DNA of 64,000 nucleotides from Candidatus Poseidoniaceae archaeon. Its GTDB lineage: Archaea > Thermoplasmatota > Poseidoniia > Poseidoniales > Poseidoniaceae. The notes under the pieces were generated by a model. That model was not told the DNA's origin and ran no database searches. It saw only the letters and a list, made by a program, of their open reading frames with translations. The stretch lies in NCBI GenBank assembly GCA_949372645.1, contig CASIAP010000010.1, forward strand, positions 1 to 64,000, read 5' to 3'. This document shows, in pieces, positions 12,535 to 58,669 of the stretch; position 1 is the stretch's first letter; each line of letters opens with the position of its first letter. A program made the translations under genes and the position numbers.

Positions 12535-12855
12535 ATGTGGGTTGGTCGAACGGCTATGGGCATGGCTGCTGCATGGATTGAGGCGATTGGCTTACTTGCC
12601 GGGGTCATTGGGATTTTTGCTTGGATTCCTCAAATCATTCAGGTTTGGGTTCATAAACGCCACGATGGAATCTCATTGACGACGTTTGCAGTTGTTTCTT
12701 TTGCCCTTGGACTTTGGCTCGTGTATGGGATTCTTGTTGATTCCTTTGCTATGATTGCTGCCAATATAATGACCTTGACAGTCATCGGAGCAGTCATTCT
12801 CGGGGTACTTCGTGTTCGTAAAAACGAACGCCAGCCAGAACAAAATCAATTGTAG
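12535..12855 (+). CDS. SemiSWEET / PQ-loop small sugar-transporter-like protein
   Basis: IGLLAGVIGIFAWIPQIIQVWVHKRHDGISLTTFAVVSFALGLWLVYGI; three TMs with PQ motif. Confidence 0.85.
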   Translation: MWVGRTAMGMAAAWIEAIGLLAGVIGIFAWIPQIIQVWVHKRHDGISLTTFAVVSFALGLWLVYGILVDSFAMIAANIMTLTVIGAVILGVLRVRKNERQPEQNQL

Positions 12856-13859
12856 GATGCCTTAGTCGTTGAGATAATCACGGCACCGATCTTATAGGGG
12901 TCTCCGTTTGATGCTGGTCGTCGATCTTCGAGGCGCCCAACCCAACCATCTTCTGGAACCGTAATTGGGATTCGGATAGATGCCCCACGGTCTGAAACGC
13001 CGTAGGAGAATTGGTCAATCGACTGAGTTTCGTGCAACCCAGTTAATCGCTGATCGTTGAATTCTCCGTAAACGTCCATGTGTTTCTTGACATTCTTACC
13101 GAATTCTTCGCAAATCTTTGTGAACAATTCTTCTCCACCCACATCGCGCATTTTGCCATCAGAGAAATTAGCGTGCATGCCTGAACCGTTCCAATCTCCT
13201 TTAACCGGTTTTGGATGATATTCAATATAGCAGCCGTAGCTTTCGGTGAGGCGGTCCAATAAGTAGCGGGCCAACCACAATTCATCGCCGGCTTTCTTTG
13301 CACCCTTGGCAAAAATTTGGAATTCCCATTGCCCACAGGCTACTTCTTGGTTGATTCCTTCGAAATTAATGCCTGCATCTAAGCACAAATCTGCATGTTC
13401 TTCAACCAATGAGCGGCCATGGGTGTTTCTTCCGCCAACAGAACAGTAGTACATTCCTTGAGGCCCTGGAAATCCGCCAACGGGGAAACCAAGCGGGAGT
13501 TGTGTTTCAGTATCCATGATAAAATATTCTTGCTCAAAACCAAACCAAAAATCTTCGTCGTCGTCTTCAATTGTTGCTCGGCCGTTACTCGAATGCGGAG
13601 TACCATCGGCGTTCATAACTTCACACATAACAAGGAAACCATTGAACCGTTGAGGATCTGGGTATATCGCAACTGGTTTGAGAAGGCAGTCTGAAGAGTT
13701 TCCAACAGCTTGTTTTGTTGAAGAACCATCAAAATTCCACATATCGCATTCTTCAAGGGTTCCAGTGAAGTCTTGTTTCACGATTGTCTTACTACGCATG
13801 TTCTGAGTCGGTGAATATCCATCGAGCCAAATATACTCTAATTTTGCTTTATCCATCAT
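12846..13859 (-). CDS. glnII: Glutamine synthetase, GSII (eukaryotic/rhizobial) type
   Basis: KLEYIWLDGYSPTQNMRSKT, MWNFDGSSTKQAVGNSSDCLLKPVA, NGSGMHANFS, YGVSDRGASIRIP; 337 aa, much shorter than GSI. Confidence 0.95.
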   Translation of the reverse strand: MMDKAKLEYIWLDGYSPTQNMRSKTIVKQDFTGTLEECDMWNFDGSSTKQAVGNSSDCLLKPVAIYPDPQRFNGFLVMCEVMNADGTPHSSNGRATIEDDDEDFWFGFEQEYFIMDTETQLPLGFPVGGFPGPQGMYYCSVGGRNTHGRSLVEEHADLCLDAGINFEGINQEVACGQWEFQIFAKGAKKAGDELWLARYLLDRLTESYGCYIEYHPKPVKGDWNGSGMHANFSDGKMRDVGGEELFTKICEEFGKNVKKHMDVYGEFNDQRLTGLHETQSIDQFSYGVSDRGASIRIPITVPEDGWVGRLEDRRPASNGDPYKIGAVIISTTKASYN

Positions 13860-25537: not shown

Positions 25538-25651
25538 CTGCGAGGCATAACGGCGTCAGGAATAGTTCAAGGAAGCAATTGAAGCAAAGGTGAACCTTGA
25601 AGGGTGGTGGCATCCTCGCCGACACATCCGCAATGCGGAAGGTGAAGAAAA

Positions 25652-26656
25652 ATGAGTGACCGTCTATATGTTGGAATCGATCTAGGTACCTATCAATCTA
25701 CTATTGCATCAAGTGCTGGCATCAGCCACACAATCGAAACTGTTGTCGGGCGTCCTAAGGACCCTGTTGCACGAAACTTCCTCGGACGAGACGTCTTGTT
25801 TGGAAGCGATGCTCTCAAGAACAAACTCGCATGTAACCTCTACCGGCCTATGGCTGCTGGAGTTGCACAAGACGATGAGGGTAATTTGGCCGCTGCTAAG
25901 GCGTTTGTCTCTCACCTTTTGGAAACTGTAGACCCTGAAGAATTCGATGAAGTGTTCGGAGTTATCTGCTCTCCAAGCCACGTTTCATTCACTGACAAGT
26001 CCAACCTCGTTGCTACGCTACGTGGACAAGTTAACGCCATCATGGTCGTTACAGAACCTTTTGCTACTGCCTTTGGTATCGGTGAAATTGCAAGTTCAAT
26101 TGTTGTCGACATCGGCGCAGGAACTACCGACATTGCACGAATCTACGGTACTTTCCCAACAGACGAAGACCAAGTCACTATCCAAGAAGCTGGAGACTGG
26201 CTCGACAACGAACTCATGGAACTGATCCGAAAGAAGTACACCGGCGCTCAAGTTACAAAAGACATGGTTCGCAAGTGGAAGGAAGAAGTTTCCTACGTCG
26301 GAAGCGAAGACCGCCAAGCAATGGTCGAATTATCCGTTGAAGGAAAGAAGCAAGTCGTCGATATTGGCGACCTTGTCAACCAAGCGTGTGAAATGATTAT
26401 TCCTAAGATTGGAAACGCAATCAAGCGAATCGTCGCTGGCGCAGACCCTGAATACCAACCAATTCTCCGAAATAACATCATCCTCTCTGGTGGTGGCTCT
26501 TTGATTGAAGGTGTTGCTGCTCGTATGGCTGACGAAATTTCTGATATCGGTGATGTCAATGTTTGGTGTGTCGATGACCCAATTAATGCGGTTGCTACAG
26601 GCGCTCTTCAACTCGCTGGCGAAATGCCAGATGACATGTTCACTGCAATCAACTGA
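25652..26656 (+). CDS. Actin-like ATPase, MamK-like
   Basis: Phosphate-1 LYVGIDLGTYQSTIASS, phosphate-2 SIVVDIGAGTTDIARI, adenosine loop NIILSGGGSLIEGVA; MamK-like strings VVGRPKDP, EDQVT, PEYQ, CVDDP, GALQLAGEMP. Confidence 0.92.
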   Translation: MSDRLYVGIDLGTYQSTIASSAGISHTIETVVGRPKDPVARNFLGRDVLFGSDALKNKLACNLYRPMAAGVAQDDEGNLAAAKAFVSHLLETVDPEEFDEVFGVICSPSHVSFTDKSNLVATLRGQVNAIMVVTEPFATAFGIGEIASSIVVDIGAGTTDIARIYGTFPTDEDQVTIQEAGDWLDNELMELIRKKYTGAQVTKDMVRKWKEEVSYVGSEDRQAMVELSVEGKKQVVDIGDLVNQACEMIIPKIGNAIKRIVAGADPEYQPILRNNIILSGGGSLIEGVAARMADEISDIGDVNVWCVDDPINAVATGALQLAGEMPDDMFTAIN

Positions 26657-26750
26657 TTGTTGGGCTCATTCAAAGGGTAGAAAACCAGCCGTCTAAGGCT
26701 TGTTTTAATGGCGAAAGTTCAAGTGTGGTTGGGCGGCGATAGTCGCTTGT

Positions 26751-28016
26751 ATGACGCTCGACTCTCCCGGAACAAGTGGTATCAATCGAATTGGTGACGC
26801 AACAGGCGATGAACGAGCGGCTTTGGAAGGCATGCTCAAAGGATACCCTGTCGAACAACTGGTTGAAGAAGTGCTCATCGCTTGGAATGAACTTGCTGCT
26901 CGAAATGAAGAAATGGTTTCCGTTAAACAACGACTTCGTGTTCTCGAACTGGATCTTGCTGAACGTGAGGACATGGTTGCTCCAGAAGTTGCCCGCCTCG
27001 CAGAATCTGATGCGGCTTTAGAAGACAGTGAATCAAAGGTGATTCACCTTGAACGACTTTTGGGTGATCTGCGTGAAGAATTAGAATCACAGCAATCATC
27101 TCTTTCACATGATGAACGTGAATCGATGGCCGCGGAAGTTGGTCAATTACGAACTTTGACGACACAGCAAGATGAGGTCATCGGCGAAATGGAAGGGCGG
27201 ATTGGCCAGATGGTCGAAGCGCTTGAACGAGCTGCTGATGCTGGACTCACTTCAGTCACTGCTGAAGAAGTGCGAAGTTTGAAAGCTCAACTCAATACAG
27301 CAATTACACAAAATGACGCTGAACAAGCAGCCAACAAAGCGCTTGAAGAAGAGCGCCAAAGACTTCGAGATATCGCCGATCGATTGCGGGGTCTTCTCGA
27401 TGCTCGTGATGGTCGCCTAGGTGAGCTTGAAGAACAACTTGAACGTGTAATGCAAGGGCCTCGGTCTGTTTCAGCAGAACACGACTACTTGGTCGAACAA
27501 ATCGATGAGCTCAAGCGCCGATTGCTTGAACGAAACCGAGAATATGATTCACTTCGCCGTCGAGAACGACGGCTTCACAATGATGTCTTTGAACGCGATG
27601 AACGTATTCAGCAAATCACGCTTACACTTACTGATATGGAAGCTGCTCTACAGGACAGGACCGCTGAGCTGCGTGAACTTGAAGGGCAACGTGAAACAAT
27701 GGTGCATGAACTTGATTCGGTGCGTCGCGGAGAACGTACACGAGAAGTTGTTGGGCGCGTCTTTGCCGACTCGCTTTCTTTGGTTCGAACACACGATGCT
27801 CGAGAAGCAAAAAGAGATGCGTACAGTAACACTCCTGACGTGAAGCGAACCTTGAGCACTCCTGATACAGCTGACATGGCGACCTTAGCTGAAGGTGGTC
27901 GGGTTCATCTTGAAGTCAACGAAAGTGAAATCAAAGAAGGGATTGATGTTGATGGTGTTCGACCTGCATCCCCTGGTGGCTCAGGCGACCCCGTTGTTTT
28001 TGATGATGAAGATTGA
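26751..28016 (+). CDS. Long coiled-coil protein
   Basis: Heptad-rich, Glu/Arg/Leu-rich sequence for about 300 residues with no recognised catalytic motif. Confidence 0.85.
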   Translation: MTLDSPGTSGINRIGDATGDERAALEGMLKGYPVEQLVEEVLIAWNELAARNEEMVSVKQRLRVLELDLAEREDMVAPEVARLAESDAALEDSESKVIHLERLLGDLREELESQQSSLSHDERESMAAEVGQLRTLTTQQDEVIGEMEGRIGQMVEALERAADAGLTSVTAEEVRSLKAQLNTAITQNDAEQAANKALEEERQRLRDIADRLRGLLDARDGRLGELEEQLERVMQGPRSVSAEHDYLVEQIDELKRRLLERNREYDSLRRRERRLHNDVFERDERIQQITLTLTDMEAALQDRTAELRELEGQRETMVHELDSVRRGERTREVVGRVFADSLSLVRTHDAREAKRDAYSNTPDVKRTLSTPDTADMATLAEGGRVHLEVNESEIKEGIDVDGVRPASPGGSGDPVVFDDED

Positions 28017-28877
28017 TTAGTTTTCCAGCGCTGAAACTATCCCGCTGATTCGTTGGCGGAGTTCTTGTAAATCTGCTGCATCTTCAGTGAGTGTGCCCGT
28101 GACAATCCAATCTGCTCCGGCTTTCGCTGCGTGAGCTGCCTGTTCGGGAGTGCGTATACCCCCCCCGACAACAAGCGTGAGGTTGTCGACGGTTCGAGCA
28201 CTTTCGATTAATTGAGGATGTACTTGCTCATCTGCACCACTACCAGCTTCGAGATAGAAGATCTTGAAACCGAACATACGCGCTGTAAGTGCATAGGCAT
28301 GTACCAATTCTACATCACCTGATTGAATTAATTCTGCTTCTCCAACCTCTCCTACTCTGCCGCCAGGTGCACACACAAGATATCCGGTAGGCAATGCCTC
28401 TACTCCAAATTTTTCGAGATACGGCGCTCCACGAATTTGTTCACCAACTAAAAATCGGCGGATGTTTGAATTCATTAGCATCATGAACGTGATGGCGTCA
28501 GCTGCTGGAGAAAGTGCATGGGCGCCACCGGGAAAAAGAACAACGGGTATTTGCCATTGGGATTCGTCAGATTCTGGGTCTTGGCTCGCAGCAAAAGTAC
28601 GTAACTCAAATGCTTCCTGTATTGCTGAACAGGTTGCGTGAACAACTTCGTCAGGCGTATCAGTTGAGCCGCCAATAAAGATCATGCTGCTGCCACATTC
28701 CACCGCCACCATAGCCCTGTTTGCTGCGGTATTCGGGTCTTGTTTTGCAGGGTCAATGAGCGTGATGTGCCGGGTGTTTTGACTTTCCGAGGTCACATAT
28801 TCCAAAGTTGTAGCGTCGGCCCTTCTCATGTCATCCCCACCTCTCCGTTTCATGCGCACAGCATAGGCGTTACGCAC
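28017..28877 (-). CDS. Geranylgeranylglyceryl phosphate synthase
   Basis: HITLIDPAKQDP, FIGGSTDTPDEV, YLEAGSGADEQV, LTLVVGGGIRTPEQAAHAAKAGADWIVTGTLTE. Confidence 0.93.
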   Translation of the reverse strand: MRNAYAVRMKRRGGDDMRRADATTLEYVTSESQNTRHITLIDPAKQDPNTAANRAMVAVECGSSMIFIGGSTDTPDEVVHATCSAIQEAFELRTFAASQDPESDESQWQIPVVLFPGGAHALSPAADAITFMMLMNSNIRRFLVGEQIRGAPYLEKFGVEALPTGYLVCAPGGRVGEVGEAELIQSGDVELVHAYALTARMFGFKIFYLEAGSGADEQVHPQLIESARTVDNLTLVVGGGIRTPEQAAHAAKAGADWIVTGTLTEDAADLQELRQRISGIVSALEN

Positions 28878-57547: not shown

Positions 57548-58669
57548 ATGCCCGACCTTATGTTGAGTCCCGATGGCAAATTCATGTGGACTGGAACTGA
57601 GTGGATTCCCGCGCCACCCTCGTCAGAGGGGAATCAGATCAACATGCAGGATTCTGTAATGAGTGGTGACATCGTAAGTAATACAGTAATCAATAACGAT
57701 CCTGCTGCTGTTACTGCTGCGGTTATCACAGCGCTGCAACAACTAGGAATGCTTGGAGATAATACTCCACAGCAATCCCTCCCAACCCTCGAAATTGAAC
57801 TCCCTCAGTTTTTCCAAGTTGGGGACCATGTGGAATACCATAGTCCAACAAATGAGCGCTGGCTAAATCGATGCAAAGTTGTAGCGCTGAATGATGACGG
57901 AACTTACAGAGTTGAAGTTCCTAAGGATTCGGTTATTGAAACTAAATTAGCCGTAGTAATTGGGACCTCACCTGGAACAATCCGTCCAGCCAGTATACCG
58001 TTCAAACAAGGAGATAGAGTGTTTGTTAATTGGAGAAACCTTGGCCATTATTACCCCGGCAAAATCGCCAGCGAAAACGCAAATAATTCATTCAACATCC
58101 ATTTTGATGATGGTGATGTTGAGTATAAAGTAGAATGGGAACGGATCGTACCTCTGAATGAGGAATCGAAAGATGTACAAGATTATATCGAAAACGAATC
58201 GAAAGCAGAAAGAGAACTCATAGAAGCATTCCAAGTGTTTGATACAGATAAGAGTGGAGCAATTTCTGCGAGAGAGTTTTTCTCGATCCTCACTGAAATG
58301 GGTGATGACCCAATATCAATGGATGAGGTAATGCAAGAATTTGTTCATATCTTTCCAAATAGGGATATTGGATTAGATTTTGAAATTGACTATCGCTCTC
58401 TTGCCAAATACATGATTGGTTCCGAAGATTTAGAATTATCGCAAATCAAACCCGAAGTAGTTATTCGCGATGCTCTCATTTCGGATCAAAAACTGAGAGG
58501 CTATGCATATGCTCATCCAAAATTAGGTGAAGGACCGGTCAAATCATCAGAAATTCAGGCAATAACATATGATGAAAGAGCTACAGCAAGAGTTGAAACT
58601 GAAAACACAATTTATGTTGTAGGTCCAACCGGGTGGAACGAAAGTCCTGAAGACCACCCATTCAATTAA
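57548..58669 (+). CDS. Protein with Tudor-like repeat segments and an EF-hand
   Basis: QGDRVFVNWRNLGHYYPGKIASENANNSFNIHFDDGDVEYKVEWERIVP (Tudor/Agenet-like); canonical EF loop DTDKSGAISARE. Confidence 0.82.
   Translation: MPDLMLSPDGKFMWTGTEWIPAPPSSEGNQINMQDSVMSGDIVSNTVINNDPAAVTAAVITALQQLGMLGDNTPQQSLPTLEIELPQFFQVGDHVEYHSPTNERWLNRCKVVALNDDGTYRVEVPKDSVIETKLAVVIGTSPGTIRPASIPFKQGDRVFVNWRNLGHYYPGKIASENANNSFNIHFDDGDVEYKVEWERIVPLNEESKDVQDYIENESKAERELIEAFQVFDTDKSGAISAREFFSILTEMGDDPISMDEVMQEFVHIFPNRDIGLDFEIDYRSLAKYMIGSEDLELSQIKPEVVIRDALISDQKLRGYAYAHPKLGEGPVKSSEIQAITYDERATARVETENTIYVVGPTGWNESPEDHPFN

Follow-up and report, generated by a model that had tools for sequence, protein, structure and literature searches.

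The window, a 64,000-nucleotide stretch of a Poseidoniaceae genome, contains two adjacent genes that are the subject of this analysis. The first, Act1 (25652–26656, forward strand), opens with an ATG codon and encodes a MamK-like actin of 334 amino acids. The second, CC (26751–28016, forward strand), starts 94 bp past the Act1 stop codon and encodes a coiled-coil rod protein of 421 amino acids. Each is preceded by a conserved element that we predict to be a probable promoter element: GTGAACCTTGAAGGGTGGTGG (25590–25611, forward strand) upstream of Act1, conserved in related genomes, and GAAAGTTCAAGTGTGGTTG (26713–26731, forward strand) upstream of CC, conserved in both families discussed below. 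A GGGPS gene of the PcrB family (28020–28877, reverse strand; Pfam PcrB, E = 8.7e-43) is convergent with CC and serves as a locus marker outside the proposed mechanism. Upstream of Act1 lie housekeeping genes for FtsY, prefoldin alpha and ribosomal L18a, and beyond GGGPS an ABC transporter is followed by a rhodopsin-like ORF; FtsY, the transporter and the rhodopsin-like ORF were named from sequence and not by profile. Elsewhere in the window we observed a short (337 aa) glutamine-synthetase-like gene (12849–13859), in which the catalytic domain is matched at 16–155 of 344 only, a gene of the fatty acid desaturase family in this archaeal genome (45712–46794), and a gene combining EF-hand matches with weak Tudor-like matches (57548–58666), an unusual pairing for an archaeon.

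Act1 is a member of the actin superfamily, with an actin fold and intact nucleotide motifs. Every motif string quoted for this gene in the original prediction is found in its ORF: DLGT, VVGRPKD, LGRDVLFGSDA, TEPFATAFG, VDIGAGTTDI, DEDQVT, PEYQ, NIILSGGGSLIEG, CVDDP and GALQLAGEMP. The prediction had also placed the protein closer to MamK than to MreB, and profile, PDB sequence, fold and tree analyses all agree with it. The NCBIfam ranking is headed by MamK (339 bits, E = 2.7e-101), followed by BeeR (213 bits), MreB (87 bits) and salactin (32 bits). The curated MamK cut-off of 400 bits is missed both by Act1 and by a second actin of the same genome, Act2 (362 bits), which is described below. 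Act1 likewise stays under the BeeR cut-off of 530 bits and, with 87 and 77 bits, under the cut-offs of two MreB profiles (293 and 366 bits), and neither Act1 nor Act2 (68 bits) reaches the salactin cut-off of 400 bits. A PDB sequence search returned MamK (E = 3.3e-63) ahead of BeeR (1e-38) and MreB (1e-13). The AlphaFold2 model of Act1 (pLDDT 88.7, pTM 0.86) matches the MamK filament best, with an E-value of 1e-36, a TM-score of 0.92, an rmsd of 1.9 Å and 35% identity. In a maximum-likelihood tree with MamK, BeeR and MreB as references, of which bacterial MamK and BeeR are represented by one sequence each, MreB is split from a group of Act1, Act2, MamK and BeeR with a support of 100/100. A position inside the MreB clade had been named beforehand as a possible refutation; the protein lies outside that clade and groups with MamK and BeeR. 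As to the branching order of Act1, Act2 and MamK, no tested alternative was rejected when MreB was left out of the tree. All 80 Act1 and all 39 Act2 sequences have intact phosphate 1, phosphate 2 and adenosine motifs, with T/A/C variation just before the last Asp of phosphate 2 in Act2. The match statistics of the MamK profile and PDB searches, together with conservation across the family, argue that the finding of Act1 and CC is not due to chance.

The gene following the actin had been described as mostly coiled coil, which the structural model and heptad pattern of CC bear out. AlphaFold2 places helices over residues 18–360 (pLDDT 78.7, but pTM 0.22), and hydrophobic residues occupy heptad a/d positions at a fraction of 0.467, against 0.214 (s.d. 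0.024) for shuffled sequence. The N-terminal part, residues 18–160 (26802–27230, forward strand), is the sole part retained in genera that lack the actins, as judged from alignment with the short CC proteins described below. The C-terminal part, residues 161–421 (27231–28013, forward strand), is absent from short CC and was seen only alongside actins; it is the putative actin-binding part. Within it lies a block that column identity marks as near-invariant, residues 236–285 (GPRSVSAEHDYLVEQIDELKRRLLERNREYDSLRRRERRLHNDVFERDER; 27456–27605, forward strand): over residues 241–285 the mean column identity among 16 diverse sequences is 0.95–0.97, making this the most conserved stretch of the protein, and residues 255–285 are rich in Arg and Lys. 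Profile comparisons gave 16 bits against Rod_CreS (cut-off 100) and 28.6 bits against SMC (cut-off 729), and profile searches found no PDB relatives of CC and recognised no DNA-binding domain in it.

Conservation of the coiled-coil neighbour beside the actin, the other point on which the original prediction could have failed, is found in 72 of 80 loci. The two genes share a strand, and the median distance between them is 94 bp; the gap is 40–180 bp in these 72 loci, and the other eight have 0.5–3 kb between the two genes, holding other genes where examined. In genus g2 the linkage is broken and both genes are kept, Act1 beside an S8 protease gene and CC beside GGGPS on a separate contig. CC or its short form adjoins GGGPS in both families, f1 and f2. 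An Act1–CC operon was considered and is not claimed, since a conserved element of its own precedes CC and the eight separated loci carry insertions between the two genes. One intervening gene (L036, 8351–9763) encodes a membrane-type protein of 470 amino acids whose tail, DGVVTKNERKLLVLQ, resembles by eye a stretch (residues 266–311) of the zinc-ribbon protein introduced next.

The second MamK-like actin, Act2 (G000:C4:188827-189819), is 47% identical to Act1. At the loci examined, Act2 comes after a gene for a protein of 330–350 amino acids, here called ZR, which carries Cys pairs at each end (CPRCGG...C..C and C..C...C..C). The profile libraries contain no named family for ZR; the only match was a sub-threshold one to a transposase zinc ribbon. 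The original prediction of an actin beside a conserved coiled-coil neighbour is supported for Act1 and CC but captures only half of the set, with Act2 and ZR located elsewhere in the genome. The two actins differ at one informative position. The MamK variant A278D is described as non-polymerising (PDB 5ljw), and the MreB variant S283D, with its change in the intra-protofilament interface, is a monomer (PMC4051119); in our sequence alignment MamK A278 and MreB S283 occupy the same position. There Act2 has Asp in 31/39, Asn in 7/39 and Glu in 1/39 sequences, and Act1 has Pro, Ser, Ala, Gln or Thr in 79/80 and Glu in one. The prevalence of Asp there suggests that Act2 may not extend homopolymers. 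Judging from the alignment, it may cap, seed or co-assemble with Act1, and the surrounding interface could have adapted. In one single-contig genome (G035:C1:1175447-1176441) Act2 is split into two frames, by either a sequencing error or a real break. A segment of ZR (residues 266–311; L032 9990-11033; DGxIxxxExxLLW type) weakly matches proteins of ~150 amino acids encoded ~6–10 kb from archaellin genes on f2 contigs (e.g. G540:C25, G330:C4).

In our sample of the phylum, made up mostly of incomplete metagenome assemblies, nearly all MamK-like matches fall inside f1 and f2. We infer that f1 is MGIIa (Poseidoniaceae) and its sister family f2 MGIIb (Thalassarchaeaceae), on the strength of the rhodopsin-like ORF and of how archaella are distributed in the sister family; half the genera of Thalassarchaeaceae are reported to have archaella, and the genomes are given as ~1.9 vs 1.4 Mb in size (PMC6461757, PMC6864105). 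An actin match is present in 167/171 f1 genomes, most of which have two; about 149/171 carry Act1, as judged from scores, and 153/171 carry CC. Among the 148 genomes of f2, Act1 was found in 23, Act2 in 27, full-length CC in 23 and ZR in 29, the last count leaving out short ZR matches that cover residues ~240–318 only. All four are confined to genera g15, g17, g19 and g22, and presence or absence agrees in 146/148 genomes for Act1 and full-length CC, and in 146/148 for Act2 and ZR. Act1, Act2 and ZR were not found in the remaining seven f2 genera, where 64 genomes encode a short CC, with open frames mostly of 144–195 amino acids. Short CC aligns to CC residues 16–160 and ends at a break in the coiled coil (residue ~160; the model helix ends at 163). 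In the loci read it adjoins GGGPS in the same convergent arrangement, and short CC genes are preceded by a similar, AAGGTTCAA-type element. No genome with both short and full-length CC was found.

In a GGGPS tree one branch, with a support of 99/94, separates all the actin-less genera from the rest, so the pattern of actin absence amounts to one evolutionary event. Fisher p-values for the co-occurrence in f2 are consequently not independent support, and the f2 pattern is a single data point that could belong to genome shrinkage; the actin-less genomes are indeed smaller, at about 1.3–1.5 Mb versus 1.6–2.1 Mb. With a root between f1 and f2, loss of the actins would be the simpler interpretation. 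Three genomes lacking all four genes (G232, G404, G545) looked like independent losses and were not counted, because in G232 the contig with GGGPS stops at the locus, in G545 GGGPS is truncated, and in G404 no GGGPS was found. Truncation of CC at the coiled-coil break, without the most conserved stretch of the protein, nevertheless points to more than generic genome shrinkage. Since residues 236–285 are so strongly conserved and are absent exactly where the actin is absent, they are the best candidate for an actin-binding site.

Of the characterised systems, MamK (PDB 5ljv, 5jyg; NF040964) is like Act1 over the full length at ~35% identity, with the catalytic motifs intact. It differs in that Act1 and Act2 miss its curated cut-off, belong to an archaeal host and form two paralogues, each with its own conserved neighbour. 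In line with the original prediction that mam genes are missing nearby, none was recognised by profile among ~25 of the 50 predicted window genes, nor among the genes read around Act2. BeeR of Verrucomicrobiota, a three-stranded tube described as closest to MamK, occurs outside magnetotactic organisms and falls on the Act1 side of the tree; its reported disordered N-terminal extension of 30–50 amino acids is absent from Act1 (PMC11929497). Coiled-coil partners of MamK are reported from Desulfovibrio magneticus RS-1, in which two actins, Mad28 and MamK, and the long coiled-coil proteins Mad20, 23, 25 and 26 are described as one interaction network (PMC12748827). That system sits in a magnetosome gene cluster, and the likeness is one of principle; it makes an actin plus a coiled coil a known working principle.

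A comparable gene pair occurs in another archaeon of the same phylum, Thermoplasmata archaeon SG225.bin14 (L132; JAEHCK010000014.1, 3911-7062). Its single MamK-like gene exceeds the MamK cut-off (435.5 bits) and encodes a protein 42–45% identical to Act1 and Act2; a coiled-coil-rich ORF of 618 amino acids, belonging to no named family, comes next in the same orientation. This ORF was considered as a CC homologue and rejected, as no homology was detected. The pair is flanked by archaeal-type Kae1/TsaD and Diphthami_syn_2 genes, which support the archaeal assignment of a genome estimated to be ~7% contaminated. A scan of genome contigs with the L132 protein as query returned only L132, which indicates that the sampling of bacterial MamK is thin. 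Weaker MreB-like genes in L095 2324-3271 (G509) and L131 (G397) group with bacterial MreB, and assembly contamination is possible there. A viral or plasmid origin was considered and rejected: we found one distant phage match, one MreB-like plasmid gene and no viral contig.

With moderate confidence, we interpret Act1, CC, Act2 and ZR as a two-actin filament module in which the C-terminal part of CC binds actin. Act1 would be an ATP-driven actin of the MamK/BeeR branch that builds MamK-like filaments. The C-terminal part of CC (about 161–421, above all 236–285) would bind or cross-link these filaments, and its N-terminal coiled coil (18–160) would attach to something that is present also without actin. 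The rod could bridge tens of nanometres, with an upper limit of ~50 nm at full extension, as estimated from 1.5 Å per helical residue. Act2, possibly unable to extend alone, may contribute as a cap, seed or co-assembling subunit, with ZR as its adaptor, and the two could form a regulatory or anchoring arm. The module might then hold or position a cell component, much as MamK does with its adaptors; positioning of cell content, also suggested in the original prediction, is thus a possible role. We infer filament assembly, binding by CC and the cargo from several observations: profile, PDB and fold searches all rank MamK first, and the motifs are intact throughout Act1; Act1 and CC are adjacent in most loci and both survive the broken linkage in g2; co-occurrence in f2 is nearly complete, and actin-less genera keep only CC 16–160; the CC block 236–285 is near-invariant; Act2 carries Asp at the A278D/S283D position; and in another archaeon a MamK gene scoring above the cut-off is likewise followed by a coiled-coil gene, though one unrelated to CC. 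Against the module stand the single event behind the f2 pattern, the upstream element of CC, the eight separated loci and the missed MamK cut-off. In a more specific and tentative version, Act1 would form the polymer, and Act2, in which an assembly-blocking substitution has become fixed, would be devoted to capping or nucleation; with CC and ZR as their respective adaptors, the two would position an intracellular structure in Marine Group II.

A real though less probable alternative is that Act1 is a filament-forming MamK-like actin and CC a mere neighbour, with general genome shrinkage on one branch accounting for the absence of both actins, of ZR and of the CC C-terminal part. The order FtsY–prefoldin–S8–Act1–CC–GGGPS would then simply be inherited, and the entire neighbourhood, beyond the pair, is conserved; one event, smaller actin-less genomes and an independent upstream element of CC would all fit. 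Shrinkage does not account, however, for a retained CC that stops at a domain border and is missing the best-conserved block of the protein, nor for the unlinked ZR and Act2 that share the same distribution. We consider it improbable that Act1 filaments act on the chromosome and move or segregate DNA, like salactin and ParM, with CC or ZR adapting them to the DNA. Salactin of Haloarchaea, a euryarchaeal actin for which MamK is reported as the closest of the actin families, has been proposed to act in chromosome segregation, and it is reported as a single gene in most genomes, with partners other than those of Act1 (PMC10746226). The Arg/Lys-rich CC segment and Cys pairs of ZR like those of nucleic-acid-binding ribbons would suit such a role, but no DNA-binding domain is recognised in CC, the zinc-ribbon match of ZR is sub-threshold, and the actin-less genera must also segregate their chromosomes.

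Positioning of the archaellum or another surface machine at one cell site by Act1 is very unlikely. Archaellins and actins overlap in f2 above expectation (19 genomes with both; Fisher p 0.008, uncorrected for relatedness), and the proteins weakly like ZR 266–311 are encoded on archaellin contigs. Archaellin presence does not, however, track the actins: genera g14 and g21 have archaellins without actins, and in G269, G345, G401 and G410, which have actins, no archaellin was found. To a magnetosome-type role as a true MamK, or an MreB-type role including cell shape, we give hardly any credence. The family resemblance to MamK speaks for the former, but the stretches scanned yielded no recognisable mam genes, and an MreB-type shape system is ruled out by profile scores and tree position. 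Control of cell shape had been part of the original prediction; MGIIa and MGIIb cells are alike in morphology, both being reported as cocci of about 0.7 µm (PMC6864105), which makes such a role unlikely.

Among the planktonic archaea of the surface ocean, Marine Group II are described as the most abundant (PMC6461757); the group is uncultured. A term search of a set of open-access genome and expression papers on the group found no mention of MreB, a cytoskeleton or cytoskeletal actin, and we found no open-access paper naming both MamK and Marine Group II. With one neighbour absent and the other cut to its first third wherever the actins are absent, the genes described here look like an undescribed internal scaffold in archaea without known magnetic organelles. 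The truncated CC points to the part of the protein to examine for binding, and the Asp of Act2 gives a one-residue prediction for assembly. If our interpretation is correct, MamK-type actins would not be tied to magnetosomes and would be near-universal in a planktonic archaeal family that has a natural knock-out clade as its neighbour.
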